A stretch of DNA of 25,964 nt, taken from assembly GCA_000310025.1 (NCBI GenBank), contig FN648858.1, positions 1 to 25,964 on the forward strand, read 5' to 3'. The position numbers and the translations under genes are program-made. This stretch comes from Ectocarpus siliculosus (taxonomy: Eukaryota; Sar; Phaeophyceae; Ectocarpales; Ectocarpaceae). Within the stretch, counting starts at the first letter, position 1. Each line of letters opens with the position of its first letter. The notes beneath the pieces are model-generated. The model did no database searches. It was not told the DNA's origin and saw nothing but the letters and a program-made list of their open reading frames with translations. Shown here in pieces: positions 2,042 through 25,815 of this stretch.

Positions 2042-2155
2042 ATGAAGACAATGGCGGCAGTGACGATGGGGATCGTGCCTATCGTGCTGCTTGCTCTTAG
2101 TGGAACCTTGGCCTCCGCCGGCTCGGCTCTCAGTGGCAGTAACGCTCACAAAGAG
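2042..2155 (+). CDS. Exon 1: signal peptide
   Basis: The exon encodes 38 residues beginning MKTMAAVTMGIVPIVLLALS. A Lys near the start is followed by a hydrophobic core and a small-residue stretch (ASAGSA) that fits signal peptidase cleavage around residues 25-28. It ends at GAG|GTACAT in phase 0; read-through would stop at 2182. The ATG is the first in this frame after the pyrimidine-rich AG at 2028. The start is inferred from the signal peptide. Confidence 0.7.
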
Positions 2156-5100
2156 GTACATCGAGCACTGATTGACTCTTGATGCTTCGCGGCATTGCGT
2201 CTTGAAACTGTTTTCAAACCACATGAACAGGACGTAGCGAAAAGGCTTCGCCATCTCAATATTGTTGGCGTTAGTTCTTCGCCTTTCAGAATATTCTTGA
2301 CGCAGAAGCTGGGGCCATACAAGATGGACCGACTCAGCTTCAAGTTTCCGCTGTACAAGTGTTTCTTCGTGCTATTGCAAAGGTTTGCCAGTCATCCCTC
2401 AACATGCGTGTTGTTGACCTTTCGAGCGCTTATCTTCTGTCAACAGGTTGAGCTCAATAGATTTCACGTGTTCACGGCGCCAACGTGCCGCGGGCCATGT
2501 TAAGTATGGCAGAGCATCGCTGTCCACCCTCATTGTTTCGATGAGGCCTTAGTGTAGAGGCCTCTGCACACCACTCGTGGTCACGTGCGGCCTCAGGTAC
2601 CTCAGGTGCAGGGTGATGTCCTTCTCACCGCTTTGGTATATGCCACATGTAGACACCAACGCCAGCGGCGGTGTTCGACCTCTATTTTCGTTGAAGATCT
2701 GAGTTGTCACTGGGGAAGCGCTAGTTCGCGGACCTTTGTTTTGTTCGTCTTGATAAAATCGCAGTACAGTGTGGCTTCCACTTCATATTGGGTGGCTACC
2801 TGACGCTTTTTGCCCGCCGCGTTTTGGAGTAATGCCTGGTTTTGAACCTATAATGCGACGGATGGCAGCACGACAAATGCCGTTGACACAAGGCTTTAAA
2901 TGCGGATGAAACCCTTGGCTCGGGCCACTGTTGAGACTACGCGCGCTGCGTCATGGGCAAGTCAAAGGATAAGATTTCTCCGGTTGAAGAGTACGTCGAC
3001 GTGTTCGTAACCCTTGCTTGCTTAAACCGTTTTTGTCTACAGGGAAATGTGGAACTTCTCGCCGACAATGGAACGATCAACATCAATTTGCGCAGCCTTC
3101 AGGCCGAAGGTACGAGGTAGAGGGGGCGACGAACGCCGACAACATGGTATGCTTGTCATCCCCAGTTGGTGAGAGCACGGCGACAACCATTGGCCACATT
3201 GCGCACGTGCTCTGTGGTGTCTTCCCCGTGTCCTCAAGCGCGCGTGTATTGAAGCGGACCCGATTATCCTAGAGTACCCTCTGTTCCTCTGCTACTCTCG
3301 ACGTAGTCGCCCTCTCTGTATGGTTTACAAAGCCGCTTGTCTTTTGCAGCTGTAGACCAGAAAGAGTTGACTTGACGCGGGGATCCTTTGCTCGGAGTAG
3401 AGTGGTCGGCGCTTCAGCGCTATGCTCAGGTCGCGCTGAAGTGTTCTGGGAGTGACCTTCGGTCGGGCGAAAGGGCGTCACCACCGTTCATTTCGGTTGA
3501 CCGCCGAAATGTCTCCATCGAATGGTCTCTCCACTTCCTCCAGACCCTTCTCCGCGGGCCTAATGATATTCACTACCGCCCCTCCTCGATCGATGACGTT
3601 TTGTTGGGAGATGATACTATGCCACATCATTATCACTGCCCTCCGGAACCGACCAATCAAGTGAGAGTGCGACGGTGGCCTAAGCCAGCCCCACCCTCAG
3701 TAATAGGGCACCGTACAAGTGACTTTCAACAATCGCCCTCCACATCCGACAAACCAACATAGAGCGCGACGGTGGCCGAAGCCAGCCCCACGCTCAGTAA
3801 CAGGGCGCCGTGCAAGCGACTTCTGATTTTCGCATTCGGGATCCGACTTGAGTGTGAAGCCGGCCTCATGCTGAGAAACAGGGCGCCATACAAAGGACTT
3901 TAAAATCGTTTTTCGCACTCCGGACGCGTACAATAACATGGCACGTAAAGTCTGTTGAGTCGCCCCAGGGTGTGTGGTATCTCGTATCACGTACGATTTT
4001 TGTATGATTGTTTTCTTTACTTCTCGTTGGTTAGCGGTTCCCCGCGCGTGCTCCTCGGGCCCGCGTGCGACCACGTATGCCGCCGCAGCGGAGCCGCGGC
4101 TGTCATGCACAACACCAGCTGAAGAGATCGGTAGCAGTAGAAAAAGGATTCAGGGTTTCGCGGCACGCTTGGCGCGTCTCATTCTCTACAGCACCCACAT
4201 GACAAAGTGAGCCTCTACGACCAGATGTTGTTGCGTGCCAGCCAAGCGTGTTCCGCGCCAGGTGCCTCACATCCAGCCCGAAGGACGAAGACACTACTGC
4301 TTCATGTGCCCACCTGTCTACGTTGGCCGATGCCCCAATCCTTTGACGTGCTCACGTACTCCGTGTCCTCTCTCGCGCTCACGAGCGTAACAGTCGACGA
4401 CTACGGCCCACGCGTGCTCTCTTTGCTAGTATCCAGAGGTATTGGGGGCGCGCGAAATTTGCCCACATGTCTGTAGGCAACCGTAATGCATTACAATTCT
4501 TGCCGTTACAACGAACGTCAGTTTATTCCGTGTCCGACAACAGCTTCGCTCGTTCGTTTGCACCACGTCATGGCTTATGTAACAGGGATGCCTGTCGCGC
4601 CCATTTGAAATCATTCTGCTGTACGTCAGCGCATGTTGTCTTCATCTGCAAAACAGACATCGACTCTTTGACCGATCTGCAATTGACCACGTCTCGTACC
4701 GTCACGTTTTCTATGTGCTTTGCTTGACTAACTGTCGTATCTGTAAACATTGATCAAGGTAAGCCGTAACGTGAGTCTCAAGCGAGATAGCTCGCCAAAG
4801 ACGACGCCAAGTTCCAGGGGTGCACGACCGACCAATATATACGGTTGTTCCGCGTCTGCCGACTTTAGCTCACCTCTCCTAATACGCCTGTGGTTCAAAT
4901 GACGTCTTCACCTCAAACGAGCAGTTGAGACGTGTGACGGCGGAATTGTCGGCATCCAGCAGAGCGACATATCCTGCTCCTCAAGCTGCGGGTCTTGCGG
5001 AGGTACCGGGTGCACTTCCCGAGACGGTGGATCCGAAGCCTGCTGTGGTGGAGGAGTCAGGGCCTCCGGTCGCTATTGCTCTGTAACGGGAGAAGCTCCC

Positions 5101-8100
5101 TGCATGACCGGTGAGCCTATCGCAAACGCTCCTCCGAGTTTGAGACCTCGGTCACTGCATATGTATGGGTTCCGTTCCGTGCCCCCACTCGGGTTTGGAG
5201 AGGTACTGTAGTTTAAGCGTTGAAACGTGATGTTCGTACTGACCAACCAAGACCTGACGAACAACTGAAACGGCCATCTAGAATTTAGCTTCTCAGTGAA
5301 CCATAGTGTATCTTGCAGGTACAACTCTCTTCGTTAATTCGTTAAGGCACTTGTTGGCACTATAGGGTCAGACCACAACGGAAACAGGCGGAACTATCTG
5401 AAGCCTAACGTTCCGGTTCTATGAATCGATATATGCCGTTGATTGTCCTCTTTTTTGGCAACACGGCGCCAACAATACTATGAACGGATCTGCGCCATTA
5501 TGAAACAGGCCCGGCCCCTACGCCGGAACCTACGCCGGCCCCTACGCCGCCCCCTACAGATGAAGGTAAGCGGTGCTGCGTTGCCGCCTTGCGCCAAACC
5601 CGACAGTATGTCAGATATCTTGCCGACCTGAACACCGTCCACTGTACACGACTTGATAACCGTGGCTCCTCGAAACTGCAGGTGCTTGGTGCAGCAGCTT
5701 CGATATCCTGACAATGATCAGAACAGCAAGACTGACAAGGGATTTGAGCACCCCGTCGTAGCTCATGTAGCAGGGGCGTCCGTCGCGCCTATATTGAACG
5801 GTTTCGGTGTAGGTAAGATCATCTTGTGTTCCATCAGCAGCACGACATCGACGTTTTGACTGATGCTCAAAATGCCCCCACGTTTCGCTCTATCACAATT
5901 TGTATTATCTGTGAGTGGGCTTTGCTTGACTGACTGAACGATAGCTGCCCACAACACCAGGTGCCGGGTAGTGCGGGATTTACCATTTATGACGTCTGCG
6001 CGGCGTCTTCTCACCTAAACTCAACCCTGCGAAATGGAACGCCTGTGACATGAATCGCGTCTTTATCCGAAACGAACAGTTTCGATGTGCGACGGCGGAA
6101 TTGTCGGCATCCAGCAGAGCGATATATGCTGCTCCTCAAGCTGCGGGTCTTGCGGAGGTACCGGGTGCACTTCCCGAGACGGTGGATCCGAAGCCTGCTG
6201 TGGTGGAGGAGTCAGGGCCTCCGGTCGCTATTGCTCTGTAACGGGAGAAGCTCCCTGCATGACCAGTGAGCATATAAACGCTCCTCCGAGTTTGAGACGT
6301 CGGTCACCGCATATGCGTTCCCTTCCGCACCTTCACTCGGTTTTGGAGAGGTACTGTAGTTTGAGGGGGTAAAACGTGATGTGCGTACTTACCAATCTAG
6401 ACCTAACGAATAATTGAGACGGCCATCTAGAATTTAGCTGTTTCGGGATCCTATACGTATCTTGCAGCCACGATCCTCTTCGGTCAGGCACTTATTGACA
6501 CGGCAGTGTTCAGACCACATCTGAAACAGGCAGCGCTATCGGAAGCCTAACTTCCAGTTCTTGCATCATCGATATATGCCGTTGAACGTCCTCTTGTCTG
6601 GCAACACGGCCCCAACAGTACTATGAACGGACGCTTGTACCATTTGTGAAACAGACCCGACCCTTACGCCGGAACCTACGCCGGCCCCCACGCCGCCCCC
6701 TACAGATGAAGGTAAGCGGTACTCCGTTGCCGCTTTGTGCCAAAACCTACGGTATGTCTTGAGCATCAGATACCTTGCTGACCTGAACACCGTTCACTGC
6801 ACACGGCTTGATAATCGTGGCTCCTCGAAACTATACGTACGTGGTGCTGCAGCTTCGATATCCTGATGATGATCAGAACGGCCTGCCGACACGGTCTGTG
6901 AGCTCCCCGTCATAGCTCATGTAGCCGGGACCCCCGCCGCACCTTTTTTAATAATTCTGACGTGCTTTAGGTCAGCGAGTGTTGTGTTCCATCGGCAGAA
7001 CGGCCATAGACGTTTTGACCTATCCGCAAAAATGTCCCCACGTTTCGCTCTGCCACGGCTTGGATTATCTGTGAGGGTGCTTGACTGATCGTCGATATCT
7101 AAACAAGTGCTATGGAGAGACTACGCGAAGCCGAAAAAAAAGCTTCAAGCTGACTCAACTCGCAGACAACGACGCCAGATCCCAGCGAGTGCGGGGTTGA
7201 CCATTTATGACGTCTGCGCGGGGTCTTCTCCCTTGAACTTAACTCTGCGAAATGGAACGCCTGTGACATGAATCGCGTCTTTATCCGAAACGACCAGTTC
7301 CGATGTGCGACGGCGGAATTGTCGGCATCCAGCAGAGCGATGTATGCTGCTCCTTAAGCTGCGGGTCTTGCGGAGGTACCGGGTGCACTTCCCGAGACGG
7401 TGGATCCGAAGCCTGCTGTGGTGGAGGAGTCAGGGCCTCCGGCCGCGATTGCTCTGTTACGGGGGAAGCACCCTGCGTTGTGACTGGTGAGTCTAGAGTA
7501 TCGAACGGCGCTTTGTTCGAACACCGAAGTGACGAACTTACACTCTTGGAAATTATGTCGTTAGAGTTGACTCCTCCGACTTTGGACCCTCAGTCACTGC
7601 AGAAATATAACATTAGCTCCCCAATGCTCTCACTCGATATTGGAGAGGTAGTTCGAACGGTGGGAATCTTGATGCTTGTGCTGAGCATTCAAAACCTAAC
7701 ATTAAGTTGAAACGGCCAGCTCCAATTCTCTCCGTTCAGGCACTTGTTGATACGGCAGTGTTCAGACCACATCGGAAACAGGCAGCGCTATCGGAAGACT
7801 AACGTTCCGGTTCTATGCATCATCGACATATGCCGTTGAACGTCCTCTTGTCTGGCAACACCGCGCCAACAATACGATGAACGGATGCTTGCACTATTTG
7901 TCAAACAGGCCCGGCCTTCACGCCGGAACCAACGCCGACCCCTACGCTACCCCCTACAGATGAAGGTAAGCGGTGCTCCGTTGCCGCCTCGTGCCAAAAC
8001 CTTTAGTAAGTCTTGAGCATCAGATATACTTCACACCTGAACACCGTCCACTGTACACGACTTGATATTCGTGGCTCCTCGAAACTGTACGTGCTTGGTG

Positions 8101-11100
8101 CTGCAGCTTCGATATCCTGATCATGATCAGAACAGCAAGACTGACCATGGGTTTGAGCACCCCGTTATAGCGAGGGGTTTTGAGCACCCCGTCATTGCTC
8201 ATGTAGCAGGGGCGCCTGTTGTGCCTATGTATACGAGGTCAGCGGATGTTGTTTTCCATCTGCAGGACGGTTATCGACTCTTTGACTGATCGACGAATTT
8301 CCCCCGCGTTTCGCGCTGTCTCGTCTTGATTTTCGGTGAGTGCGCTTTGCTTGACCGACACCGTATCTCTGAACTACCTGACGAAAAACTGAAACCGTCA
8401 GCTAGAATTAAAGCTCCTCAGTTTAGCCGGATTCCCGAGTGGTACGAGCGGTCCCGAGGGTCGTTTGCCCTCCTCCTTGGACCCTGTATGTCCCGTGACC
8501 AGAAATGAAGCTAGAAACAAGCGTTTGACAAGCGTTTTGAAAAACCTCAAAGCAAAATGTGTGCACGTTTTCTGAGTCGTAGTCAGTATGACGGCGATGA
8601 AGTTTTCCACGTTCTGGCCTCCCCCCAAACTCATGGAACACTTGTTTTCTTTCCCTCCGTCTGTCTTTCGTCCGATATTTCTTCCCCCTTTGTTGGCATC
8701 GGCTCTTTGTTCCGTCATGTGTTTCACAAGGGGCGGCGCCTGTGCCGTCGTCAGCGTCAACTCCCACACCAATGATTGCCCCGGTCTCAGGTACGTGTCC
8801 CTGAGTCGCCACCGTGGATCACCAAACGTTTTGTACGTGCAGGTATTCAGTTTCCTTCCGACCGTTCCACATATACGACCGGCAATCTCGGTGTAACGGT
8901 AGCCAATGGCGATAGTTTGTCAGCGCGTGACACACTTGCTTGCCCGGCATGGATAGCTGGATCACATCTGAATTCCTCATATCTACCCACGGTGTGGACG
9001 GTTGATTTCCCTGTTTGAGAAATCGCCATCATCACGTCTTGCAGTCGGTGTATCATTTCTTGATGACTCCAAACCAATCTCAAAACGTCCTCGTTGCCGT
9101 CGCCATTTCCTGTCCAAACTTCCCACGCGGGGGGTCCTACGCGTGCTCGCTATACTTCCGCGGCATGTACGGTGAGTTTGCTTGACCGAGCAACATGTTC
9201 AGTTGGTAATCTAGCTGGCACCTCATCGTAGTACCGCCCGTTGGTAATTTGAGTTACAATAAAGGGAAACCTTCCCAACTTGAGCTTTTGGAAGCAAAAT
9301 TGTCTTGTGCCAACTGCACGGGTGGCTGTGGTAGGCTCTTGCCTTTGACCATTCTGCCCCAACTTCGCCGCGCATGTGCCCTACGCGATCTTCCGCCGAT
9401 TTTTGCATTTCAGGTAATACCACTTCGGCCCCCACCACCTCGGCCCCTACCACGTCAGTAGTTCCTACCAACTCCTCACTGGAGTTTGTAAGTACTGTGC
9501 GAATGGAAGTTGGAGATGACATTACTATTTTGGGGTGTTCAGATTCATGGATCTATGTGGAGTCGCCAACTTCACCTACCATTCAACCAGATGAGCTTTT
9601 GCTCATTATGAATGGTCAAGAAGGCGTGTCATATGCAGACACCCTGGTTGATTCGTGTGAATGTTTTCCCCTAATGAGGAAGATTGTTGGGATCGAAGCT
9701 TCTCAAGAGCACAGTGGGATTAGTTGTGCTGGGTCGAGTTGTTGGATCCTGACCTCAGAATTGCTGACCCCGCTTGACACCGTCTCTGGTACGGATGTTG
9801 ATGACCTCGGTTTAACCGAGCTCCAAGACGTTCCCTGGGAGTCTCTCGCAGGGAGCATATGTGTTCCGAGTGAGATCAATGGTCGTAAACTGTTGGGGGA
9901 ATGTAGGGATGCATGGGAAGGTCCACCTTGTCCCTACAATGATTGTCCGGATGGCAAATGTTATGAATGTTCGTCAAACCCGAGCGGTTGTGATAATGGA
10001 TGTGGTCCGGCGGATTGGCCGAGTGCAGCTACTAGAATTATCGCAGAACTCACACCGTTCGGCAACGGGTGTTGCAACCATGACTACTGCTGGTCTGCCA
10101 GACCTGACGACAAGAGTGGCTGTGATTTGGAATTTTGGGGGGATAACCTCGCCGGATGTTGGACTACTTTTGGGTTTCTTGCGATTATTAACCCTAAACC
10201 CTTAGCCGCATGTAACATTGTCGGCACAGCGTTTTATCTTGCTGTTGCTCTGGGTGGGAATGACGCCCATGAAGAGGCCGTCCAGAAACAGCGAGATTGG
10301 GAAGAAACCTGCCAAGCCACACCCGCACCCTCTCCCACGCCCGAACCGGTAAGCCTCCCTATTGGCCGGTTATCGTTGCTGGAAATTCGAGACGGATCTC
10401 CCTTCCTGCGATCGTACGCGTATTTCTCGTATTCGTTTGCTCCGAGCCGTCGTTTCAAACTACAGGAGGTATTCCGCGCTAGGGCTCTGCCGGGTCATTC
10501 GGGGACAACAATCGCGCCGGCACAGTCTAACACGTGCCTAACATACGATACACACGCTTTGGAGGGCAGAGCGTACCCCGGCTGCCTCCAGCCAGGCTGG
10601 AAACGTGGATCGGTCCGGGCCACACATGACATTGAACGAATGAAGTACCATCGACAATTGATTAGGCCATACGAACTGCTGTACCAGTGCTGAGTTTGGT
10701 GTTTCGGCGGATAGGCCGGAAACAGCACGATGTCGATGCCTAGGCCGAGGGAGCCGTAATGCTTTGGTTAATCCACCGTAGTTTTCCCCCACTTGTTGCT
10801 GATCTTATCAACAACCACATGGACATAAACTTACCCGCTCTTTCAACCCACCCCCTTCGTATCATTCTGCCGGTCGCAATCCATCTTCGACCCCTTCCTT
10901 CTTCCCGGTTTCCCGTGCAGAAACGCGGTAAGGAGAGATGGAAGAAGCCTCCAGCGTAATATATTTTGTCTGATACGCGCTTTCGGCGTATACTGAGAGA
11001 GTTTAAGGCGTACCCCACTTGTGGCCGTGGCCTCGCCGCCCAAGCCCATGCTTGACCTTCTACCGATGACCTGTTCCACCTTGTCTGGCCTGCAATGTCA

Positions 11101-14100
11101 GGTGGATCCGCAGACGGAGATCCTCACTTGCGGGTCTACGACGGCACCGGGTACGACTGCCACGGGCAGGTCTAGTTTGTGTTGACCAAGGCTGCCGCCA
11201 CGGAGAGCGAAGTCCAGGCCCGTTTCCAGCAGTGGAGCCAAAACCCGGACCCAGCGGTCACCGTCACCACCGGCATCGCAGCGCGCGAGGGAACCTCTTC
11301 TTTGATCCAGGTGACGACGGCTGCCTCCGGCGGTGTCGAGGTCTTGGTGGATGGAGAGCTGTACGACGCGAGTGCTTCTTCTGTCATCGGAATTGCGCTC
11401 GAGGTCACGTCGTCTCGGGTGGAAATTAGCTTTGAGTCGGGACTAGACGTGTTCGTGTCAACCAGCATTAACGGAATGCTGAGGGTCAACGCGTATGCGC
11501 CCGTCAGCCTCGCCACTACGGGTCTCCTCGGCAACAACAACGGAGAGCTGGGCGACGACTTTACGGTGAGCGTGAGAAAAGACCTGGCGAATCAAATCAT
11601 GCAACGATTTTTTCAGTCATGCACTGCGGTTATGCCTCACCAAGACCTCGGTTGGTGCTGCATTGTGCGTTGTACCTCTGCCAGCATCTACATGAATTAA
11701 AGGCCGCCGCTGTTTGCTTCAACTTGAAGTGTTACCGAAGTACTTCCGCGACTCTTGTTCCTCCCTCCCGTCAATTTGTTCGCCGATAACCGGTGTTGTC
11801 CGTGCGTCGAACTTGTGCCCGTCTGCACTTACTGTACCCCTCTCTCCCTACTCCACACACCTCATCGAGTAGAACAGGAGATATTTTGACGCTTGAGGTC
11901 CCTCCCCTTGCTGAACGCGGCAGACCGTGGACGGAGAGACTGTCGGCTTCGCGACTGCCTCACCGACAGTGGAAGAAGGCACGAACTACTGCACCACGAA
12001 CTGGTGCACCACGGCAGACGCGTCTCTCTTCACCTACGCGGAGGGGGAGGACCACGGCACGTTCGACTTGTGCGACGCGGTCTACGCGGCGCCCGTGTTG
12101 CCCGATACCATCCCGGCGTCAATCACAGAGGTACGTTCGGGAGAACACATCGGGTTTCGGCGAAATACCAAAAACTCGAACACATGTCCTCGGGGTCCCT
12201 GGGGCGCACTGTAGCTGGCCGCGTTTGTTTTGAGTGCGATTCGACACGGTTACATAGACTACAACGTCGACATGTGCCCTCCATGAAGGAGCAGAGCTGT
12301 TTTCGTGATCGATCGCACAGTAGTAAATAGAGCGTCAGGGGCTCCCATACTTCTCGTCATCATGCCTACCCGAACTTGGTTCTCCCCAGCGATGCCATGT
12401 CGACCGGTTCACTCCTCCCGCCACTTTACGTAAAAACTTATCTCAGCTATGCGGCGACAACGCCGACTGCATCATAGACGCCCTTCTTGCTGGCGAGGAG
12501 GTGGGTCAGGCGACGCTCGAAGGACAAGCGGAGGATCGAGCCTACCAGGAAGAAGTTGCGGGCAAGTGTACTGATGGCGGTGGTGGTCGTGGACTCCGTC
12601 GTTTCCCTTTCCAATGCGCCTGCTCCTGCCAAATCAACCCAGTTTGCAGCATGGATGAAGCGGTCTGCGTAGTGAAAATATGAATCAAACGCTCTCTTAC
12701 CCTTGACCACATGTGGTACACGACTTGCGTGGATCCTGCATCATTGTAGCTGGTGGTGGCGAGGGTGGGTTGTTGAGTCTAAATAGGTCCCCTGAAGAGA
12801 CCTTTTTTCACAGGTTGGACGCAGGCTAGATGTACCGGCGACTGATTTAGTCACATAGAAAACTGAATAGCGAAAGAACCTGGGATAACGGGTAAATGGA
12901 TAATTGCAGGTCAAAGAGAAGAACTGCGCCGCCGGTTGGTTTGGGAGAAACCTTGATCTTCTCTAGCGACGCGCTTGTTATGGCGACTGTTTTTCGGAAT
13001 CCCTCGCGCTGAACGGGGCCTGTCATCACTACCGCGTAGCTGTGTGGTGGAAACCTGACAAATTACACGCCTTTTAGGCGGGTAAAAGCCGTCGATGCTG
13101 GCAGCAACCGGGTCAAAACGCAGCCCTTGTGGCATCAACACCCGCAGTCACCGCCAACTCTGCCAGGCACATTATGCAACCTCGATCTCGAATTAAATTA
13201 AGCCCCACGCGTTGTTTGCACCAAACGTACCTGAACCCACGAAACAGGTTTGTGCGCGAGCAACTCTTTCAGCAGCACCGGTGCGCCGCCCTGCACGACT
13301 TGCCCCGACGGAGAGGTTTCCGGCACCGGCGCGACCGCGTGCATCCGTCAAGGTGCAGTCAATTTTGACCTACTGAGCCTGTAGCCCCGAACGTTTGTGC
13401 CCGAGCGCAGTCTAAAGCCGCTGGCTGCGTTCAAATGCCGCGCACACAACATGGCATGAAGGAATTTCCTGAGAACAACCATGTACGTTATTGGGAAAAT
13501 TGTCAGCGGTCAGGCGTTGGAAGTATATACGCCGATGTTGAGGCGCACCTGCCGCCAAACCTAACGGTGTTCGAAATGACATGGAGCTGGCAACGGACTG
13601 CTGACTAAGGTATAGAACTCACAAAGAATGGGGCTGCTGAAGTGTTCAGGAGGTTGTCTCTTCTCCTCCATTAACAACCTCCTGGAGAGGCAAATTGCGA
13701 CCCAAAGCTGGCTACAAGACATTGTTCAACACCTTATGACATGCACCACATTACGTTCGTGCGTCAACGAGGGACGCAGCATACAAGAACCTACGCTTTC
13801 CTTCGTATGTATTGCAAGTTCTCGTTACCATCGTGTGGCTCTTGCTGACGCCGTGAAACCCTTGTTGCTCTCGCGTTGCTTTTCCTTTCCAGAGCTCGTG
13901 GGTCTGAGTCTCCCCGAGAACATCGCCGCTGCCATGGCAGCTGACGTAAGTTTGCTTACACGCAGCTCTATCTAGCTAGCAATAGCGGTGCGAAAAATGT
14001 TCACCTCTCGCGATCCTATGTTAATGGTGGCACGCTTCATGGCTCGCGTGTCCGTACCATGTTGTTTATCACTGAACGAGGCCTTTGAGACGTCGTTGGC

Positions 14101-15425
14101 CAAGACGCCGTTGGTATCGAAATCTGTTTGTTCCCGCGAGGACATGGATCGTGGTCTCTTGGTCGCATCTCTCCGCCTTGGGAGCACCGCACCAGAAGCT
14201 GCCAAGCCGTCAGGTAGATACGGCCATGCACAGCCGAGCTCTACGACATGTAGCGTGCCGTGGACACAACATCGGGCCCATCCGGCCGGTGGCCCGTTGC
14301 AGCTTCTTGTCCAGGCAGACCACCGTCACCAAGTTCGTTGGCACAGAAGTAACGTTCGAATTTGAACGAGAAGTTGTGAAGGTCGCATAAAAACCCCTCC
14401 TGCGTACCGTGAACTTCTCCATGCACAGGCCATGGGCGGCTTTGCCGGCCCGGGATCCCTCACCACGACACCGGCGGGAACGATCCAGCTCACCGAGGAG
14501 GACGGCGGCTCCGTGTCGCTGTCCGGCACTTTCGTTCGCGACGACGGCGCGGCGCTGCCGAGCTCGACTTCCGTCTTCATCTACACCGAGAACACGGCAC
14601 AGCCGGACGACTTCGTCCGCGGCCAGGAGGCACTGGATCCCTCGACGGGGGCGTTCTCGACGGTGGTGACCGACATCCCAGCGGGCAGCAGCAGGTTGCT
14701 CCTCAGCTTCGTCGTCGTGGATCCCGCGGAGGCACTTGATACCGCGGGAGCCGACACGGCGTTTGCGCTCGACGTCTCCAACTCTGCCTGCGTACCGTCG
14801 CTGACGATCACCCTGGAGTGGACCGGCGAGATATCTGACGTAGATCTCTATGTCGTCGAGCCCGGCGGAGAGGTCGTCTACTTCAGCAACCGGGGTGGGG
14901 TAAGCGAAGTGCCGAAGGAAAGAGTCGTTTCAGGCCCGTCTGACCGGCCGTTGTGGCCTGTTGCCGTTGGATGTCAACTTGGGGAAGTCGAACATGCGTT
15001 AGCGCGCAAGGGTCGGCCGCACAGCAGTGTTCAGTGGCATCAAGCGTAGCCGTGAGCACTCCCTTACAGTACCAATGATGGAAGCTGTCGTCACTTATTG
15101 CTTATCCCCGCCTCTCCTCACGAACCTGCTGCTGATTCCGTAGGACGTCGGGTTCCTCGACAACGACGATACTTACGGGTTCGGGCCCGAGAACTACATC
15201 ATCGATAGCGCACTCGATCCCGCCGCCAGCCAGGTGCTTGGCGAGTACGAGACGTACGTCAAACTCTACTCAGGCGACGCGGCCACGGAAACTTGGCGCC
15301 TGACTGCCCGCGTTTCCGGAGAAGTGGTGTGGATCGAGGAGGGTGATTTCATCTCCTCCACCCAATCTGATACTTTTGCCGTCTCTCTGAGTGTCTACGA
15401 TCCCACTTGCGGAGGTGTCCCGTGA
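2042..15425 (+). CDS. Secreted multidomain protein: Cys-rich repeats, PLA2-like, VWD and DUF2135 domains
   Basis: This is one gene model assembled by splice sites and phase. Exons: 2042-2155, 3043-3109, 4925-5110, 5509-5565, 6080-6265, 6655-6711, 7298-7486, 7909-7965, 8731-8790, 8843-8991, 9045-9171, 9414-10348, 10921-10927, 11102-11565, 11924-12130, 12447-12561, 13893-13945, 14429-14899, 15144-15425. All phases agree and the sum is 3783 nt. Best supported are the signal exon, the three Cys-rich exons and their spacers, the PLA2-like exon, the VWD exons and the two DUF2135 exons. Tentative are 8843-9171, the 7-nt exon and the joins 3109/4925 and 12561/13893. The product should enter the secretory pathway, and its Pro/Thr spacers are likely O-glycosylated. 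No transmembrane segment is obvious downstream. A TAG at 11173 breaks the frame. The region could instead be two adjacent genes, split near 12.7 kb. Confidence 0.55.
3043..3109 (+). CDS. Exon 2: short linking exon
   Basis: A pyrimidine-rich CTACAG precedes it and GAAG|GTACGA follows. It enters in phase 0 and leaves in phase 1, matching exon 1 on the left and every repeat exon on the right. It encodes about 22 residues (GNVELLADNGTININ...) with no recognised domain. The intron before it (2156-3042, 887 nt) shows nothing else that I can support. Confidence 0.5.
3110..4924 (+). other. Presumed long intron (1.8 kb)
   Basis: I found no phase-compatible exon between 3109 and 4925. The stretch carries a three-copy degenerate tandem repeat (3661-3937). 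From about 4565 to 4760 it carries sequence matching the distal part of the ~1.2-kb repeat units that follow, i.e. a truncated unit 0. A missed exon remains possible. Confidence 0.4.
3661..3937 (+). repeat. Degenerate tandem repeat, three ~87-101 bp copies
   Basis: Copies begin near 3661, 3762 and 3850. The shared order is GAG-nGCGACGGTGGCC, CCAGCCCCAC, CTCAGTAACAGGGCGCC, then ACAAGnGACTT. The first two copies are closest; the third is diverged. It lies inside the presumed intron. Confidence 0.65.
4925..5110 (+). CDS. Exon 3: Cys-rich module, copy 1
   Basis: A 186-nt exon, phase 1 in and out (GAGCAG| ... ACCG|GTGAGC). The pattern resembles the other copies: CDGG, CSSSCGSCGG, GC, GGSEACCGGG, YC, APC. 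Here the first Cys of the CC pair is Ser (TCC at 4972-4974), leaving 9 cysteines. Phase symmetry makes it a cassette that can be duplicated without disturbing the frame. It is probably a small disulfide-bonded extracellular module; I do not recognise a named Pfam family. Confidence 0.75.
5509..5565 (+). CDS. Exon 4: Pro/Thr spacer, copy 1
   Basis: A 57-nt exon, phase 1 in and out (GAAACAG| ... GATGAAG|GTAAGC). It encodes PAPTPEPTPAPTPPPTDE, an extended spacer likely to carry O-linked sugars. It pairs with the preceding Cys-rich exon and is conserved with it in the next two units. Confidence 0.75.
6080..6265 (+). CDS. Exon 5: Cys-rich module, copy 2
   Basis: A 186-nt exon, phase 1 in and out (GAACAG| ... 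ACCA|GTGAGC). It has all ten cysteines, including the CC pair (DICCSSSCGSCGGTGC). It is nearly identical to copies 1 and 3, and the near-identity extends into the introns, so the duplication is fairly recent. Confidence 0.78.
6655..6711 (+). CDS. Exon 6: Pro/Thr spacer, copy 2
   Basis: A 57-nt exon, phase 1 in and out, between TGAAACAG and GAAG|GTAAGC. It encodes a PTLTPEPTPAPTPPPTDE-type spacer, differing from copy 1 by a few substitutions. Confidence 0.72.
7298..7486 (+). CDS. Exon 7: Cys-rich module, copy 3
   Basis: A 189-nt exon, phase 1 in and out (GACCAG| ... ACTG|GTGAGT). It has ten cysteines. It differs from copy 2 in a few residues (DVCCSLSCG, GRDCSV) and carries one extra codon near its 3' end (CVVT for CMT). 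Confidence 0.78.
7909..7965 (+). CDS. Exon 8: Pro/Thr spacer, copy 3
   Basis: A 57-nt exon, phase 1 in and out, encoding a PAFTPEPTPTPTLPPTDE-type spacer. Splice sites match the other copies (AAACAG| and GAAG|GTAAGC). Confidence 0.72.
8731..8790 (+). CDS. Exon 9: fourth, diverged Pro/Ser/Thr spacer
   Basis: A 60-nt phase 1-1 exon after TTTCACAG-type sequence (CACAAG|) and before CTCAG|GTACGT. It encodes AAPVPSSASTPTPMIAPVS. Its position after unit 3 and its composition suggest it is the spacer of a fourth repeat unit whose Cys-rich exon was deleted. The CAAG acceptor is acceptable but weaker than its neighbours. Confidence 0.55.
8843..9171 (+). CDS. Exons 10-11: unidentified Cys-containing domain (8843-8991, 9045-9171)
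   Basis: The first part follows TACGTGCAG in phase 1 and reads IQFPSDRSTYTTGNLGVTVA and onwards to Cys and Trp residues. The second follows CGTCTTGCAG in phase 0 and reads NVLVAVAISCPNFPRGGSYA... to MYG|GTGAGT in phase 1. Alternating hydrophobic residues suggest a beta-sandwich with paired cysteines. The two flanking introns would be only 52 and 53 nt, and the donor at 8992 (GTGTGG) is poor, so the internal junction is uncertain. Without splicing, the first frame stops at 9018. I do not recognise the family. Confidence 0.4.
9414..10348 (+). CDS. Exon 12: Thr/Pro spacer, Cys-rich region and secreted phospholipase A2-like domain
   Basis: A 935-nt exon (GCATTTCAG| ... GAACCG|GTAAGC), phase 1 in, phase 0 out. 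It begins with an APTTSAPTTS spacer, continues through an unrecognised Cys-containing segment, and then has the PLA2-like core: GCGP, then GNGCCNHDYCW with the His-Asp pair at 10079-10084, then CDLEFWGDNLAGC at 10121-10159. In the sPLA2 superfamily the His is catalytic and the adjacent Asp binds Ca2+; the GCGP segment would supply the calcium loop. A hydrophobic helix-like tract and a PSPTPEP spacer end the exon. Hydrolysis of phospholipid sn-2 esters outside the cell is inferred, not shown. Base composition looks more AT-rich than neighbouring exons. A perfect donor (GTAAGT at 9488) lies inside the frame. Confidence 0.68.
10921..10927 (+). CDS. Exon 13: candidate 7-nt microexon
   Basis: A strong polypyrimidine tract ending CCCGTGCAG is followed by AAACGCG and then GTAAGG. 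Exon 12 leaves in phase 0 but the VWD exon needs phase 1; a 7-nt exon converts exactly one into the other. This is inferred only from phase and splice signals. A different donor for exon 12 or acceptor for exon 14 could also solve the mismatch. Confidence 0.35.
11102..11565 (+). CDS. Exon 14: von Willebrand factor type D (VWD) domain, with internal stop
   Basis: The exon opens with the VWD hallmark DGDPHLRVYDGTGYDCHG and ends with GLLGNNNGELGDDFT, the family's GLCGNxNGxxxDDF signature. Between them are alternating beta strands (e.g. VTVTTGI, GVEVLVDGELY). The acceptor is ATGTCAG| (phase 1) and the donor ACG|GTGAGC (phase 0). VWD modules act in adhesion and in assembly of secreted glycoproteins. 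An in-frame TAG at 11173-11175 falls just after the GQV segment, where relatives continue into a Phe-Val-Leu strand, so translation should end at about residue 755. No alternative acceptor avoids it. Confidence 0.78.
11924..12130 (+). CDS. Exon 15: post-VWD segment
   Basis: A 207-nt exon, phase 0 on both sides (GCGGCAG| ... ACAGAG|GTACGT). It continues the VWD module with TVDGETVGFATA and has Cys residues in NYCTTNWCTT and DLCDAVY. VWD domains are commonly followed by such a segment, which supports the join 11565/11924. Confidence 0.7.
12447..12561 (+). CDS. Exon 16: VWD-associated Cys module (CGDNADCIID...)
   Basis: After TATCTCAG| in phase 0 it encodes LCGDNADCIIDALLAGEEVG and an acidic helix ending EEVA. 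This resembles the CGDD.EC.YD..ATG motif that follows VWD in SUSD2-like proteins. The 3' end is ambiguous. A GC donor (G|GCAAGT at 12562) in phase 1 links to the exon at 13893. Alternatively the frame stays open to TGA at 12681-12683 and adds a Cys-rich tail (CACSC...C...C), which would make this a terminal exon. Confidence 0.6.
12562..13892 (+). other. Presumed 1.3-kb GC-AG intron
   Basis: Apart from the possible coding tail to 12683, I see only short, overlapping frames with no recognised motif. If exon 16 is terminal, this would be intergenic space between two genes. Confidence 0.35.
13893..13945 (+). CDS. Exon 17: short helical exon
   Basis: Bounded by TTTCCTTTCCAG| and GAC|GTAAGT, both strong. 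In phase 1 it encodes LVGLSLPENIAAAMAAD and leaves in phase 0, which fits the next exon. No domain is recognised. An acceptor two bases later (AGAG|) would make it phase 0. Confidence 0.5.
14429..14899 (+). CDS. Exon 18: beta-rich region and first half of DUF2135/YfaP-like domain
   Basis: From ATGCACAG| it reads AMGGFAGPGSLTTTP and onwards: a beta-sandwich-like stretch (SVSLSGTFVRDD, STSVFIYTE, SRLLLSFVVVDP), then LTITLEWTGEISDVDLYVVE and VVYFSNRGG, the typical start of DUF2135 (W-x-x-x-x-x-DVDL.V..P.G..VY). It leaves at GGG|GTAAGC in phase 0. GC-rich codon use resembles the VWD exons. Function of DUF2135 is unknown; it occurs in secreted and von Willebrand A-linked proteins. Confidence 0.72.
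15144..15425 (+). CDS. Exon 19: second half of DUF2135/YfaP-like domain and stop
   Basis: After GATTCCGTAG| it begins DVGFLDNDDTYGFGPENY, the DUF2135 signature (LD.DD..GYGPE.Y), then ETYVKLYSGD, TWRLTARVSGEV and DTFAVSLSVYD, and ends YDPTCGGVP with TGA at 15423-15425. Phase 0 matches the previous exon across a 244-nt intron. A GTGAGT donor overlaps the stop, but no suitable acceptor was found, so I take the TGA as the end of the protein. Confidence 0.74.
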   Translation, partial: DVGFLDNDDTYGFGPENYIIDSALDPAASQVLGEYETYVKLYSGDAATETWRLTARVSGEVVWIEEGDFISSTQSDTFAVSLSVYDPTCGGVP

Positions 15426-15438
15426 GTTGCCAACTCAC
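15422..15438. repeat. 8-bp perfect inverted repeat over the stop codon
   Basis: GTGAGTTG and CAACTCAC are separated by one C, giving a 17-nt palindrome that includes the TGA of the preceding gene. It may be chance. Confidence 0.6.
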
Positions 15439-16775
15439 CGTCCCATTTCAGCAACACCGCCGGCTGTTGCAGAGGAGCAATGGCAGCAGTTTGAGAATTC
15501 CGCCAGGCGTTGCCTGAATTCGCCGCGAGGAAGCCCCTCCACGGAGCAGAGAGCGAGCGAGCGAGAGAGAGGACCATTTGTGGTAATTGGCGAAGAGTGT
15601 CTATGTGCCTTCCAGGTTGCATCATGCTGATTTTCTTACGAACCCGCTGGACCAAGGGGCATTCTTCTTGCACAGGCAGCGATGAACCTCTAGCTAGCGG
15701 TTTCACGTACCTTTATGTGTACCTTCTAAATAAGTGTTCTGATTGTGACGTTTCTGATGGTGAGTTTTGAGATGCAACGTGTGGTACCATCCCAGGATGA
15801 AGGTCACGTGAGGCTCAGACTTGGAGATGCCTGAGGTAACTGATTCGGCTACCGTGGCAACGTATTGTGCGTGTAATCTAGAACCAGGTGCAGTGTTTTT
15901 CATGGTTTTTTATTGCAGCGGCACTGCGTACAAGCATCATGGGGGGGGGGGGTGATGTACCATGCTCCTTGCACACAGCAGTGCAGATTTCCGTGCTTTC
16001 CGTTGGCCGTGCGTCCGCTTTGCCTATGCGTGAGGGAGCAGGCGGGGGGCGAAGATTGAAAGCCGTGTGTTTTGAGATTTTCGGTAGTCTTGAGATGGGA
16101 ATTTGATTGTTTGATATAGTTGCTCAACGTTTCACGTTGTTAGCCTTCCTTATACCTGAGGGAGTAGGGGGGCCGACGTAAAAAACACCAGTTAATATAT
16201 TTTGTTTTTTTTGCCCTTGAGCAGTACTTGTGTGTGATTGCATTGCTTACATTGCAACACTGAGGACTTGGGAACGTTACTTGCGCCTCGGTTAAGGATT
16301 GCCCCCCCCGCCCCCCAATGGGGCTGGGGGCCAACATCCAGGACGGATGGTGGTGAGTATCCGGGAGGAAGGAAAGAAGAAGAAGGGGAGAGGATTTGTA
16401 GGGGCGGGAAGAAGGGACGGTGTTGGGAGAGGCAAGAGGAGTGGTGAAGAATTTCGGCACTCGACGAGCGCGCGGTCCCGTCGGGGGTGAAAGGTCTGTA
16501 GTCTTGTCTATCGGAATCGAAAAGCCGAAAAATCGAGGTTTACATTATGAACATAACGATGGAGAAGGCCGACGGTACGAAGAGAGGAAATTGCACCCTA
16601 CGTTCGAAGTTCGAAGTCGGTGTGAAAATCGCGGCAAGGGAGCGCGAAGGAAAAAAAAAAAAAAGGAGACGTCGACGTTTGTTTGCGTCGTGGAACGATC
16701 CTTCCGGATGCCGACCTATGACACTCTCGGAATGTAGGGATTCCTACAAGTTCCAACAGGTATAATCCACAAGTA
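15426..16775. other. Intergenic, no gene seen
   Basis: This holds simple-sequence tracts: GAGCGAGCGAGCGAGAGAGAG near 15552, a run of G near 15940, a C-run at 16303 and a run of A near 16650. The overlapping frames have biased composition and no recognised domain. Confidence 0.5.
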
Positions 16776-17723
16776 AGTGCGGACATATGAAGGTACTGGG
16801 TAGAGAGAGATCGGAACGGTTTTTAATGTGAAGACACAACAACAACAACAATGATGCGACCCGTCCTGCGTCGTTCGGTGTGACAAGTGCGAAACATTGA
16901 CTGCGTAAAGATCCAGCGGTCTTTTTCGGCAGTGGCAAAGAAATATACAACCACACGTCGCAAAAAAACAAAAAGTTGAGCGGGATACCGTAGGAAATAG
17001 AACACCGCCTTCTCTGTTGTTGCAGCATTTGGGAACGTTGGACACCATCTGTCTGTGTATACGCGTGCTGGGTCGTCCAGATCAATAGCGCGCCCCTTAG
17101 AGAGATGAACATGTATTGCAACTGTTAAAAAAGAGGAGGAGACAGAGGTGGCGGCAGAGCATAGAATGAAGTTTGCACAGCATGATGTTACGGATGAACT
17201 TGGGTGGCTGCGAGCCCCGGGTTTTGGGGTTTCCGACTGTGGCTATGATCGCGCCGGGTGCACCCGTTTCTTAGGCCCAAAGCTCATACTTGAAACAAAA
17301 ATCTGCGAAACATTCGATGTGACCATGGGGATCTAGCCAGGTAAATTAATTGCATCCAGCTGCACCAGGTGTCTGTTACGCGAGAAGTGCTTAATTTCCT
17401 CCGTACGCCCTTGCTTACATACCGATCGGTATATTTCGTGGATACCACAGGCATTTAGTGGAATATTCCCTGGAAGTTAGTCAGAAGTTAGTCGGTATTG
17501 AGCGTGAAAGCGTCACCTTTTCGTGGAATTCTTTGTTGGTCTACATTGTGGCAAGGTTCCAATAGTACCCAGGTAGGTCTGCTGCTGTAAAAAGTTGGAC
17601 GGGGTTGTTTTTTTTTTTTTTTTTTTATTTCTTTCTTAATCGTTGTTGCTTTGTTGTTGTTGTCTTTCACATTAAAAAAACGTTCCGATCTCTCTCTACC
17701 CAGTACCTTCGTATGTCCGTACT
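16776..17723. mobile_element. Foldback/MITE-like element with ~73-bp terminal inverted repeats
   Basis: Bases 16776-16850 (from AGTGCGGACATATGAAGGTA) are matched in reverse complement by 17651-17723 with a few mismatches, including CAGTACCTTC, CTCTCTCTACCC, a gap in the A/T run and the (CAA)n end. The arms bound a 948-bp segment without a transposase-like frame. Similarity ends at AGTGCGGAC/GTCCGTACT, which I take as the tips. No clear target duplication is visible, so the superfamily is unassigned. Confidence 0.7.
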
Positions 17724-18414
17724 GATTCAACACTCGACGCGGTCGATTCCCGTGGTCACAGGTAAACTTACCCTAAAAAGGTACACTCAAATAAACTGGC
17801 CTTAGATATGACACAACAAATCGTTTGTTTGTTGTTGTACGCCACAGCTTTCATATCTGAAATAACTTTGCTTGTGCTTCAAGTTTTCGAACATACATCA
17901 CATGCATTGGATGCACATCGTGAACTGCAAGTTTGTTTTTGTCTTCTTCTGTAATACCGCCAACGACATGCTGCGTTATTGAAGGTGCTGCTGCTGTAGC
18001 CTCTACACTACTACAGTGCCATATACAGGTGAACGTCTTTTCCAGCTTCGTGCCCTTGGTATGCTGTGCACAGTGTTCACCCACCACCCTTCCTTTCCTT
18101 TCAGCGTAAAACCGCACGCCGTGGGGGTATGCCCCAGAGAGAGGAAAGGAGAGAGTCCAGAGATGGAGGGCCACACCGCTCCGGGGCAAGAACAAAACTC
18201 TATGGGAAACAAGGCAAGAACCGGGGTAACTAAAAGTGGTCTCTCCACCGTGTGCCTGTTTCTGCCTCTTATTTCTTGTTATTTTCGGCCTGGTCCCTTT
18301 TTGTCCTCGCTCTTTTTCATTTTATTTTCATTTTATTTTCATTTTTTTTTCATTTTTTTTCCCCCTTTTTTCAGACTATAACATTATTGTGTAATGAATA
18401 AAAAACGATAATAT
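17724..18414. other. Intergenic, simple-sequence tracts, no gene seen
   Basis: It includes the TTTGTTTGTTGTTG tract near 17822 and a (CATTTTATTTT)-like tract at about 18317-18365. No protein domain was recognised on either strand. Confidence 0.5.
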
Positions 18415-19620
18415 GGCGTCTCATGGGGGCCCATGAGGCACTATGAGGAACCATGAGGTCGTATGAGCTACCATGAGAACAGGGTCATGGGGTCTCATGT
18501 AGTCCCACGAGATAGGCCATGGGGCACCACGAGAGCATTTATTTCCGTGTCAGCCCATGGCATGCCATGGCCGATCTCATGGGACTTTGGGAATAGTGAA
18601 CCCTTGGTGCACCATGAGGAGACATGACATGGGGATATAAAACAGAAAACGAAATTAATTATGAAAATAAAGGTAAAGTATCGGACCTCATGGTGTACCA
18701 TGGGCGACCATGGCGCACCACGGTTAAAGAAATAAATACAGAAAGACAAATAAAAAGGAAAGCATTTTTTTGTTAAACAACCTCACGGGGGGTACCACGA
18801 ACGCCCATGAGTCTACCAAACCTCCCATTGTGCACCACGAGGACCCATGGTCCCTCACGACGGATCATAAGATTTTAGAAAAATAATCTTGAATCAACAA
18901 AATATATTTAAGCCAAATATCCTTGAGTAAAATGGCCATGGTGCCCCATGAGATTTCTCATGAGATTCTCATGAGATCCATGGAAAATAAATGTGTGTCA
19001 AGGGGCCTCATGGTGCGCCGTGGTGAACCAACCATGGTGTTTCATGGTGGGTCATGGTGGGTCATGAGATCCACAACAACTAAAAAAGAGTTATTTTAGC
19101 GTCCCCATGGGCGCCCATGAGAATGTAATGGTGTCTGATGTCCTTCCATGGCACCCCCTGGGGTCTAATGAGACAGCCATCTCATGGTATCCCATGGCAC
19201 CCCCATGGTGTGTGATGGGGTAAGTCTCATTGTATGTCATGATACATACCCCATGGGGTCCCATGGGGTGAGTCTCATGTTATATCACGAGACCCCATGG
19301 TGTCCCATGGGGCACCACGAGACACCACTCACATTGATTCTCATGGGCGCCCATGAGATAACGGCATGTTGGCGATAAGTTTTTTTTTGTTATCTCACGA
19401 GAGAGACCCCATGGTGTCCCATGGGGCACCACGAGACACCATATTGCTTCTCATGGGCGCCCATGAGATAACGGCATGTTGGCAATAATTTTTTTTTGTT
19501 ATCTCACGAGACCCCATGGTGTCCCATGGGGCACCACGAGACACCATATTGATTCTCATCATGGGCGCCCATGAGTAACGGCATGTTGGCAATAATTTTT
19601 TTTTGTTATCTCACGAGACC
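18415..19620. repeat. CATG-saturated repeat field
   Basis: By hand count about 54 CATG tetramers occur in ~1.2 kb, against fewer than 5 expected by chance. They are mostly inside CCATGG, CCATGAG, TCATGGG and CTCATG, with CACGA as the commonest variant. The words run on both strands and are separated by AT-rich fillers at ~18630-18690 and 18725-18775. Frames through it (e.g. MVSHGTPMVCDG) are artefacts of the repeat. Confidence 0.85.
19281..19620 (+). repeat. ~109-bp tandem repeat, three copies plus partial, with palindromes
   Basis: The motif TATCTCACGAG(A) recurs at 19281, 19391, 19500 and 19607 (spacings 110, 109, 107). Each unit has GACCCCATGGTGTCCC, a palindromic block (TCTCATGGGCGCCCATGAGA at 19339-19358 and 19449-19468), ACGGCATGTTGGC, a T-run and GTTATCTC. 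GAGATAAC and GTTATCTC form a further 8-bp inverted pair around the T-run. Confidence 0.88.
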
Positions 19621-24191: not shown

Positions 24192-24888
24192 GTGAGGAAA
24201 ACCAAGGTCGTGCTTTGTGTCTTTCAAAAATATTCTGCGAGTTAGGGCATACCCCCCCCCGACAAACAACAAAAAAGTGGTGTTCAAGTCGTGGAATGGT
24301 GTTCATCATGCCACGCGGCAGGAGGACGAGTATACCGGCCACCACGCGCACTATAGCATAAGCACGTACTGTGTAACGGTCGACAGTGTCCACGAAGCAG
24401 TTTTCACTTCGAATTTCACTTCGAACTGTTTGTGAGGGCATGGGTTTATCGTTACATGTTGAGACGTGCAGGAGCTTTGCTTAGACGGTCGGGGGGGGGG
24501 GAAGGGGGCATTCGTGAAACACGATGGGGCTAGGATCCACCAGGTATCAGAGTCGACAAGAAAAAGCATGCATACGTCAAAAGGTAGGCAGCGACGACGC
24601 GTGAAAGTAGTTCTAGCATCGCAGTCGCCAAAACAATTACCATCATCAGCGACACTGTAAATAACACCAGTCACATTGCACGGAACCCGCAGGAGTCATG
24701 TATGCCTTCATGGCTACCTTAAACCAGGGGCTATGTTTTCGAAGGGACGCTGTGCACCACCAACTATCTTCAAGATGTTGTGCTACGCTTCCTCCAGGCT
24801 GGATAACTTTTCGTTGTGCTAATTTGTTTTTCACAGATCCCTCTTTTGTCCCGCCCCTTCCCGCCTTTATATCCCGTCCTCTTACCAG
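24192..24888 (+). other. Intron of the transposase gene (697 nt)
   Basis: Bounded by GTGAGG and a long pyrimidine tract ending CTCTTACCAG. It contains a G-run at 24490 and short tracts. An alternative acceptor at TTTTTCACAG (24837) opens a frame that stops at 24971-24973 and does not join the transposase. Confidence 0.55.
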
Positions 24889-25268
24889 ACGAACGGGTAC
24901 GTCAACTTCTGCGCCGACGAGTCTGACCCGCCCCTTGAACACCAAGAAGATCGGCACCGGGCGAAGAAGGTGACGCGTGGCTTTCAGACGGTGCCGTACA
25001 AGGACCTGGCGGATGGATCTCGAGAGTACGGTTTCGAGCGCAAGCACCTGTATGGCGTGATGGGTATCCTGATCACCGCGGGAATCACCCAGAAGCGGCG
25101 GATCACCGATCACTGGGGAGTGGAAGCCCATGACAACTACCCCCTGGTCCGTGCCTGTATGCCTCGAGACCTGTTTGTCCTGTTCTACGGCCGCTTCTTC
25201 CACTTGGCCCCGGCCACCGGCAAGCTGAACAAGGACGATCCCCAGTACGACTGCAAACACCACATCAG
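24889..25268 (+). CDS. Transposase exon: N-terminal part of the piggyBac (DDE_Tnp_1_7) domain
   Basis: A 380-nt exon, phase 0 in and phase 2 out (CATCAG|GTATGC). It contains NGYVNFCADES, then KDLADGSREYGFERKHLYGV, GILITAGITQKRRITDHWG and RDLFVLFYGRFFHL. The order (helical 'flGi.i.mGi...l..yW' region followed by 'm...rF..i...lhf') is that of piggyBac transposases before the catalytic core. Confidence 0.8.
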
Positions 25269-25815
25269 GTATGCCCGATAACGTGTATGTTTCGTTTCCC
25301 TCGGATGTGTTGCCTGCTCCGCCCCTTCAGCACAACGGCCTAGGATATGTATTCCCCAAACGTGAAAAATAACGAAGTATGTACTAGAAGAAACGTCTCA
25401 ATAAGAAAACAGAGGAGTGACCCCTAAAAAAGAATACTCTACTGTTCGTAAGACACGAGGGGTGGCGGGGGGGGGGGAGTGTTTGTGTCGAATAATAAAA
25501 CTCAGAAATATATACCAAGCAAACAGCTTTTGTCTCTCTCTTCCCTCTCTCCAATGTGCTACCCATCCCCTCATATGAAGTTCATGAAAACGGACCCCTC
25601 AGGCCCGCGGGCAGCTGCGTTGGCATAAAGTGTATGTCGTTGTCGGAGCGCGAAGCGCCCATAACGACGCCGGCCCAAAAATACGCCGGGTAGCTCGGCA
25701 GATGCTGTGTTTCGACGGTATAATGTTTCCCGACGAAACAAGTGTGCCCTCCGTCAGACCGCGTACGATGAATTGTTCGAATGTGACCACAAAAAATATC
25801 TGCTACTCTTGGCAG
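25269..25815 (+). other. Intron of the transposase gene (547 nt)
   Basis: GTATGC ... CTCTTGGCAG. It contains a poly-G run near 25467 and frames on both strands without recognised motifs. Confidence 0.65.

Follow-up and report, generated by a model that had tools for sequence, protein, structure and literature searches.

The gene at positions 2042 to 15425 of the window, the whole 25,964-base stretch of DNA analyzed here and the entire contig C303, is a chimera in which parts of two gene families meet within a phase-1 intron, a structure that the first-pass annotation of this DNA had missed. That annotation had described a mosaic, secreted protein, probably associated with the matrix or cell wall, and this description was supported, a true VWD domain included. 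On balance, we consider it likely that the span is one mosaic secreted matrix or cell wall gene, in which the front of a Cys-module array gene was joined in a phase-1 intron to a back half of the type found on contig C18.

In textbooks, the extracellular mosaic proteins of animals are traced to the shuffling of exons through phase-1 introns. Brown algae are an independently multicellular lineage, and this gene points to the same shuffling process there, in secreted proteins. To our knowledge, it is uncommon for both parents and the breakpoint still to be readable in one genome. The gene thus offers a clear snapshot of the assembly of a new extracellular protein, and its analysis brings to light a large unnamed family of Cys modules.

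Two parents and a sharp switch

Searches of the genome (189,456,909 bases in 492 contigs) showed that the window aligns with C18 from 9023 to 16156 at 94.9% identity, after which homology ends, and with contig C204 from 7614 to 9027 at 95.1%, ending at 9027. Neither C18 nor C204 aligns through the switch at 9023-9027. When positions 8850-9200 were used as a genome-wide query, six matches were found: the window itself, two on contig C212, and one each on C204, C21, and C18. The matches on C204 and C21 cover the left part only, and that on C18 the right part only. The two on C212 flank an insertion of 2,486 bases at window position 8954/8955, which has 27-base perfect terminal inverted repeats and a TA duplication. 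C212 carries the same switch and is 99.6% identical to the window over 8954-17162, where the 8,216 aligned positions include 21 mismatches and 6 gaps. These alignments demonstrate a two-parent structure with a sharp switch at 9023-9027.

The window makes up an entire short contig whose halves match different loci, as would be the case if the assembly had joined reads from two loci at the switch; C212 is also short (41,579 bases). The same switch is present on C212, however, together with its own 21 mismatches, 6 gaps, and adjoining transposon-like insertion. This makes the two contigs distinct and counts against an assembly join, which we regard as very improbable. If the window and C212 were not the fused form, both C18 and C204 would have had to change at the same place, requiring two events, whereas a fusion carried by C303 and C212 requires one. 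By parsimony, we infer that the window and C212 carry the fused form. The C212 insertion (3307-5792, in L013) is probably a DNA transposon; it contains an open frame whose product has, by eye, the look of a helix-turn-helix DNA-binding protein.

Upstream of the block shared with the window, C18 encodes WSC domains (42.9 bits; cut-off, 27.8), and no match to the Cys module was found in that part of C18. The C18 linker exon ends in phase 1, and its counterpart of exon 11 begins in phase 1. On the other side, the exon 1 region is also found at 91% identity on C417 and C204, exon 2 included, with the C204 counterpart of exons 1 and 2 at C204:44759-45247; exon 1 alone has relatives of 71 to 81% identity on C229, C472 (two places), C479, and C207. 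In this left-arm relative on C204, the first Cys module (C204:38843-39025, in L022) contains an in-frame TGA.

In the mechanism that we propose, the front donor would have been a Cys-module array gene with a signal peptide, tandem Cys-module exons, and Pro/Thr linkers. The back donor, which is fronted by WSC domains in its other copy, would have supplied the PLA2-like core, the VWD domain, a C8-like piece, a small Cys-rich piece, and the C-terminal domain. The frame would have been kept at the join because the flanking introns are both phase 1.

Exon chain and the link to the VWD domain

The span can be read on the forward strand as a single chain of 19 exons with 1,234 codons ahead of the terminal stop; an internal TAG stands at codon 694 (Table 1). 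The start at 2042 is signal-peptide-like as judged by eye, in agreement with the first-pass annotation. That annotation had also called the chain phase consistent, which holds only if a predicted 7-base exon is included and fails without it.

Table 1. Features of the chimeric gene, in window coordinates
Feature	Position	Strand	Description
Exon 1	2042..2155	+	Start codon and signal-peptide-like N terminus
Exon 2	2290..2382	+	
Exon 3	3043..3109	+	Peptide 22/22 identical on C204
Exon 4	4925..5110	+	Cys module 1 (9 Cys), phase 1-1
Exon 5	5509..5565	+	Pro/Thr linker, phase 1-1
Exon 6	6080..6265	+	Cys module 2 (10 Cys), phase 1-1
Exon 7	6655..6711	+	Pro/Thr linker, phase 1-1
Exon 8	7298..7486	+	Cys module 3 (10 Cys), phase 1-1
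Exon 9	7909..7965	+	Pro/Thr linker, phase 1-1
Exon 10	8731..8790	+	Ser/Pro linker, final left-arm exon, phase 1-1; 19/20 residues as on C204
Recombination junction	9023..9027	.	In the phase-1 intron between exons 10 and 11; also on C212
Exon 11	9414..10348	+	Thr-rich linker, unnamed N-terminal part, PLA2-like HD/Cys core CCNHDYCW...CDLEFWGDNLAGC
Exon 12	10921..10927	+	Predicted 7-base exon, phase 0 to phase 1; from splice score alone
Exon 13	11102..11565	+	VWD domain (PF00094 profile); starts in phase 1
In-frame TAG in VWD	11173..11175	+	Codon 694; absent from C212 and C18
Exon 14	11924..12130	+	Conserved beside VWD on C26, C9, C56, and C11
Exon 15	12447..12561	+	C8-3/MUC4-like piece; GC splice donor
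Exon 16	13248..13352	+	Small Cys-rich, NCD3G-like; 62% identical piece on C19
Exon 17	13893..13945	+	
Exon 18	14429..14899	+	C-terminal domain part 1 (earlier "DUF2135"); 49% identical relative on C19
Exon 19	15144..15425	+	Part 2 of the C-terminal domain, with the stop codon; relative on C19, 43% identical

Exon 11 (935 bases) is entered in phase 1 and leaves in phase 0. We enumerated bridging exons between 10400 and 11080 with a splice matrix derived from the sites of this gene, with one or two of them placed a base off. The 7-base exon 12 was the top bridge (score, 12.6), followed by exons of 28 and 139 bases starting at 10466 (10.7). C18 lacks two single bases in the region of these runners-up, so that either bridge would lose phase there. 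The open frame of C18 ends just past the donor at 10348, which makes read-through at that donor unlikely. The junction of exon 11 to the VWD domain through the 7-base exon is a predicted link.

The weak point of the chain is also where it might divide into two adjacent genes, one carrying the Cys modules and PLA2-like core and ending after 10348, and the other carrying the VWD and C-terminal domains and starting near 11100. Such a division would explain why exon 11 ends in phase 0, the VWD exon starts in phase 1, and the best bridge between them is a tiny exon. It would also suit the presence of the VWD domain at seven loci versus three for the PLA2-like exon, and an in-frame ATG lies just upstream of the VWD exon boundary. 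The peptide after this ATG (MSGGSADGDPHL), however, is not signal-like, the order of PLA2-like core, VWD domain, and C-terminal domain is kept in all three copies, and the C18 frame stop just past the 10348 donor fits use of that donor. We consider two genes rather unlikely and the single-gene reading of 2042-15425 the likelier one.

Divergence from the C18 copy supports the coding nature of the exons between 9414 and 15422. Within them, the window differs from C18 at 58 of 2,636 positions (2.2%), versus 171 of 3,360 (5.1%) in the introns (Fisher P = 4e-9), and third codon positions account for 32 of the 58 exon changes (P = 5e-4).

Domains of the back half

The first-pass annotation had identified a PLA2-like core in exon 11, a VWD domain, and a DUF2135 domain, and had named PF00094, PLA2 families, and PF09906 as the profiles with which to check the spliced protein. 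Of these, PF00094 was matched, and the PLA2 families and PF09906 were not. The VWD signatures GDPHLR...GLLGNNNG are present, and the domain scored above the PF00094 cut-off of 22.9 bits, with 42.5 bits for the window copy (one TAG counted) and 45.9 bits when the letters of C212 were used. In the window copy, the open frame across the domain fails at the TAG, which the first-pass annotation had not mentioned, and the part after it scored 22.2 bits by itself, slightly below the cut-off. The domain was found at seven loci: the window, C212, C18, C26, C9, C56, and C11. C26 also contains a second, divergent VWD-like stretch (3642-3953, in L060; 25% identity, E = 0.003) about 1.2 kb past the first.

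Downstream of the VWD domain, exon 15 matched PF23263 (C8-3_MUC4) with 19.0 bits and an E value of 0.00086, under the cut-off of 25, and exon 16 matched PF07562 (NCD3G) with 15 bits and an E value of 0.022, under the cut-off of 38.9. The C11 paralogue has a C8-like piece after its VWD domain, with homology ending at the last residue of modeled exon 15. On C19, a small Cys-rich piece is followed by both C-terminal exons, and no VWD match was found in the stretch of C19 searched. Together, the arrangements on C11 and C19 support a single gene from the VWD domain to the end, short of proof. A VWD domain followed by a C8-3-like piece is also the arrangement of mucin-4 type proteins (PF00094 and PF23263). 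Unlike in those proteins, the C8-3 match of the window is below the cut-off, and neither the front half nor the C-terminal domain has a mucin-4 match.

For the C-terminal domain, the strings DVDLYV and LDNDDTYGFGPENY that led to the DUF2135 call are present, and the family label itself did not stand. The joined C-terminal exons matched no family at E values up to 10, PF09906 included, and a genome search for DUF2135 gave no match, with a control search that did find E. coli. The first C-terminal exon has four matches (the window, C212, C18, and C19), and the two strings are not conserved in the C19 relative.

The PLA2-like exon was matched at three places in the genome, namely in the window, on C212 (100% at the protein level), and on C18 (96%). 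The HD/Cys-rich core that the annotation had pointed out is where it was placed, and the PLA2 label lacks profile support: there was no Pfam match for exon 11 or two trimmed cores, no NCBIfam match for exon 11, and no PDB match in sequence searches with two cores. Five PDB matches to engineered gp120 outer domains (E values, 0.13 to 0.15) fell on another stretch of exon 11 and were set aside. Plant secreted PLA2s are described as having the catalytic motif DxCCxxHDxC and the calcium loop YGKYCGxxxxGC (PMC9995887). The exon 11 motif CCNHDYC contains the HD pair with the spacing CC-x-HDxC, one residue short of CCxxHDxC, and the calcium loop motif was not found when the exon 11 translation was read by eye.

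The annotation had gone on to propose a lipase or lipid-binding unit tethered in the extracellular matrix or cell wall, and a functional secreted phospholipase A2 held there would be one form of this. The HD pair among paired cysteines and the cysteine spacing CCNHDYCW...CDLEF...C do resemble the cores of secreted PLA2s (compared with PMC9995887), and the HD pair and flanking cysteines are conserved in all three copies. The core differs from such enzymes in the lack of a PLA2 profile or PDB sequence match, in its shortened spacing, and in the lack of a canonical calcium loop. A lipase function is not supported by these findings, and we think a working enzyme improbable. The core may instead be a putative disulfide-rich fold that binds lipids or other ligands, and the VWD and C8-like parts could serve in assembly or scaffolding.

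Searches with short peptide patterns and tblastn, which distant relatives could escape, found no relatives of the PLA2-like part or the C-terminal domain among either viral contigs or prokaryote genomes, and none of the Cys module among viral contigs.

The Cys module family and the fate of the copy

The first-pass annotation had counted three 10-Cys modules with Pro/Thr spacers. The modules and linker exons were borne out, in repeated units about 1.15 to 1.25 kb apart, and the count was corrected for module 1, which has nine cysteines (Table 1). A genome search with the Cys module gave 119 matches at E values up to 0.01 (137 candidates, all scored), with identities down to 36%. Grouping matches on the same contig and strand across gaps of up to 10 kb yielded 51 clusters, of which 33 are single modules and the largest holds 26 modules on C4; the modules thus lie partly in tandem exon arrays. 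We read 39 modules (36 genomic and the 3 of the window) and hand-picked 21 for alignment. Nine of the ten cysteine columns do not vary at all, and the first hardly does. A phase-1 GT[A/G/C] lies within about 20 bases downstream of 26 of the 36 genomic modules, a weak indication since such strings are common. A profile of the module gave no convincing match in Pfam or PDB; a chitinase in PDB (E = 4.9) and a Pfam match to 1 of the 21 members (E = 0.64) were taken as chance. No paper on the protein or the Cys module was found in the open-license literature. Soon after the last Cys module on C229 (969-2534, in L019) is a 522-residue open frame with Thr/Pro-rich repeats, a very long mucin-like linker.

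A genome search for WSC domains (PF01822), in which 150 of 244 candidates were scored, gave at least 102 matches, one of them on C18 upstream of the shared block; none is on C303 among the matches listed. Also among the matches listed, 6 of the 51 module clusters have same-strand WSC neighbors no more than 5 kb away (11 matches), and 0 of 51 have one on the opposite strand. An even density would predict about 0.17, a rough expectation because WSC matches are themselves clustered. The remaining 45 clusters, the window's included, have none within 5 kb among the matches listed, so that the association covers only part of the family at the sensitivity used.

Carbohydrate binding has been put forward as the putative role of the WSC domain (PMC12879055), and a figure legend lists WSC proteins with those of brown algal walls (PMC8307928). 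Like the wall WSC proteins and the PR-1/WSC fusions (PMC8307928, PMC12879055), the window gene encodes a secreted mosaic with small disulfide-rich modules, and the WSC domains of C18 occupy the place of the window's Cys modules. It differs in that the window has none of the WSC matches listed and the Cys module no convincing Pfam match. By analogy with what is thought of WSC domains, the Cys modules may bind glycans of the wall or matrix.

The two kinds of front raise a broader reading, in which Cys and WSC modules would be interchangeable phase-1 cassettes on common extracellular back halves, forming a shuffled repertoire for recognition or adhesion of which C303/C212 would be a freshly made member. 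We offer this tentatively and hold it to be doubtful; if true, the genome keeps producing new surface proteins with swapped binding fronts.

Among 11 close Cys modules (55 nonindependent pairs), pooled pS was 0.204 and pN was 0.048, a pN/pS of 0.24, and no rapid diversification like that of defense genes was seen among them. These values, with the exon divergence from C18, show that the back-half exons and the close modules have been under constraint, which does not establish that the window copy works at present. Under the gene model, no copy is free of lesions: the window has the TAG, where C212 and C18 read through, C212 has a one-base shift in exon 16, and C18 has one close to the start of exon 18. 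These lesions count against intact function in all three copies, and the fault may therefore lie with the model, the assembly, or the genes. The shifts in C212 and C18 fall within short homopolymers and could be errors of sequencing.

The window copy is probably truncated or dead. The TAG in the VWD domain would cut its product to 693 residues, comprising the modules and the PLA2-like core, or the copy may be silent. That it is a dead chimera, a nonfunctional duplicate decaying since the recombination, is a reading that overlaps with our main explanation and that we take seriously, at somewhat less than an even chance. Besides the TAG, the cysteine missing from module 1, the lesions in C212 and C18, and the in-frame stop in the first module of C204 are in keeping with decay. 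Against it, the other exons of the window copy are open and the close modules, the window's included, are constrained as a group, a constraint in which selection after the fusion is inseparable from selection before it.

The gene that we take to be a fused, secreted mosaic has a close parallel in the brown algal ROCO-LRR and NB-ARC-TPR genes, whose proteins are intracellular. The repeat exons of these genes are described as shuffled (PMC11378527, citing Zambounis 2012): each exon carries one module, the introns share a phase, the exons form tandem arrays, and copies recombine with one another. One module per exon, the same phase, and a tandem array are likewise found in the window gene. There, the LRR exons are 72 bp long and of phase 2 and are under diversifying selection (PMC11378527). 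The window gene differs in its phase-1 exons of 186 to 189 bp, its secreted Cys modules, the fusion of a foreign back half, and the purifying rather than diversifying selection among the 11 close modules. Exon shuffling is thus already known from brown algal ROCO and NB-ARC-TPR genes; new here are its occurrence in a secreted protein and in phase 1, with constrained modules and the fusion of foreign halves.

Several minor features lie outside the gene. Upstream, positions 1-86 and 568-644 form a direct repeat with a 79% identical counterpart on C26 (L063), indicating a dispersed repeat. Downstream, 16781-16851 and 17638-17801 align, in opposite orientations, to overlapping segments of a single stretch of C207 (L020) and may be the inverted ends of a dispersed element. 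Short repeated strings occur at about 18500-19600, with similar peptides in open frames on both strands. An open frame at 24823-25281, with a weak match to DDE_Tnp_1_7 (E = 0.0042, 16.9 bits; cut-off, 22.4), is possibly a transposase fragment.
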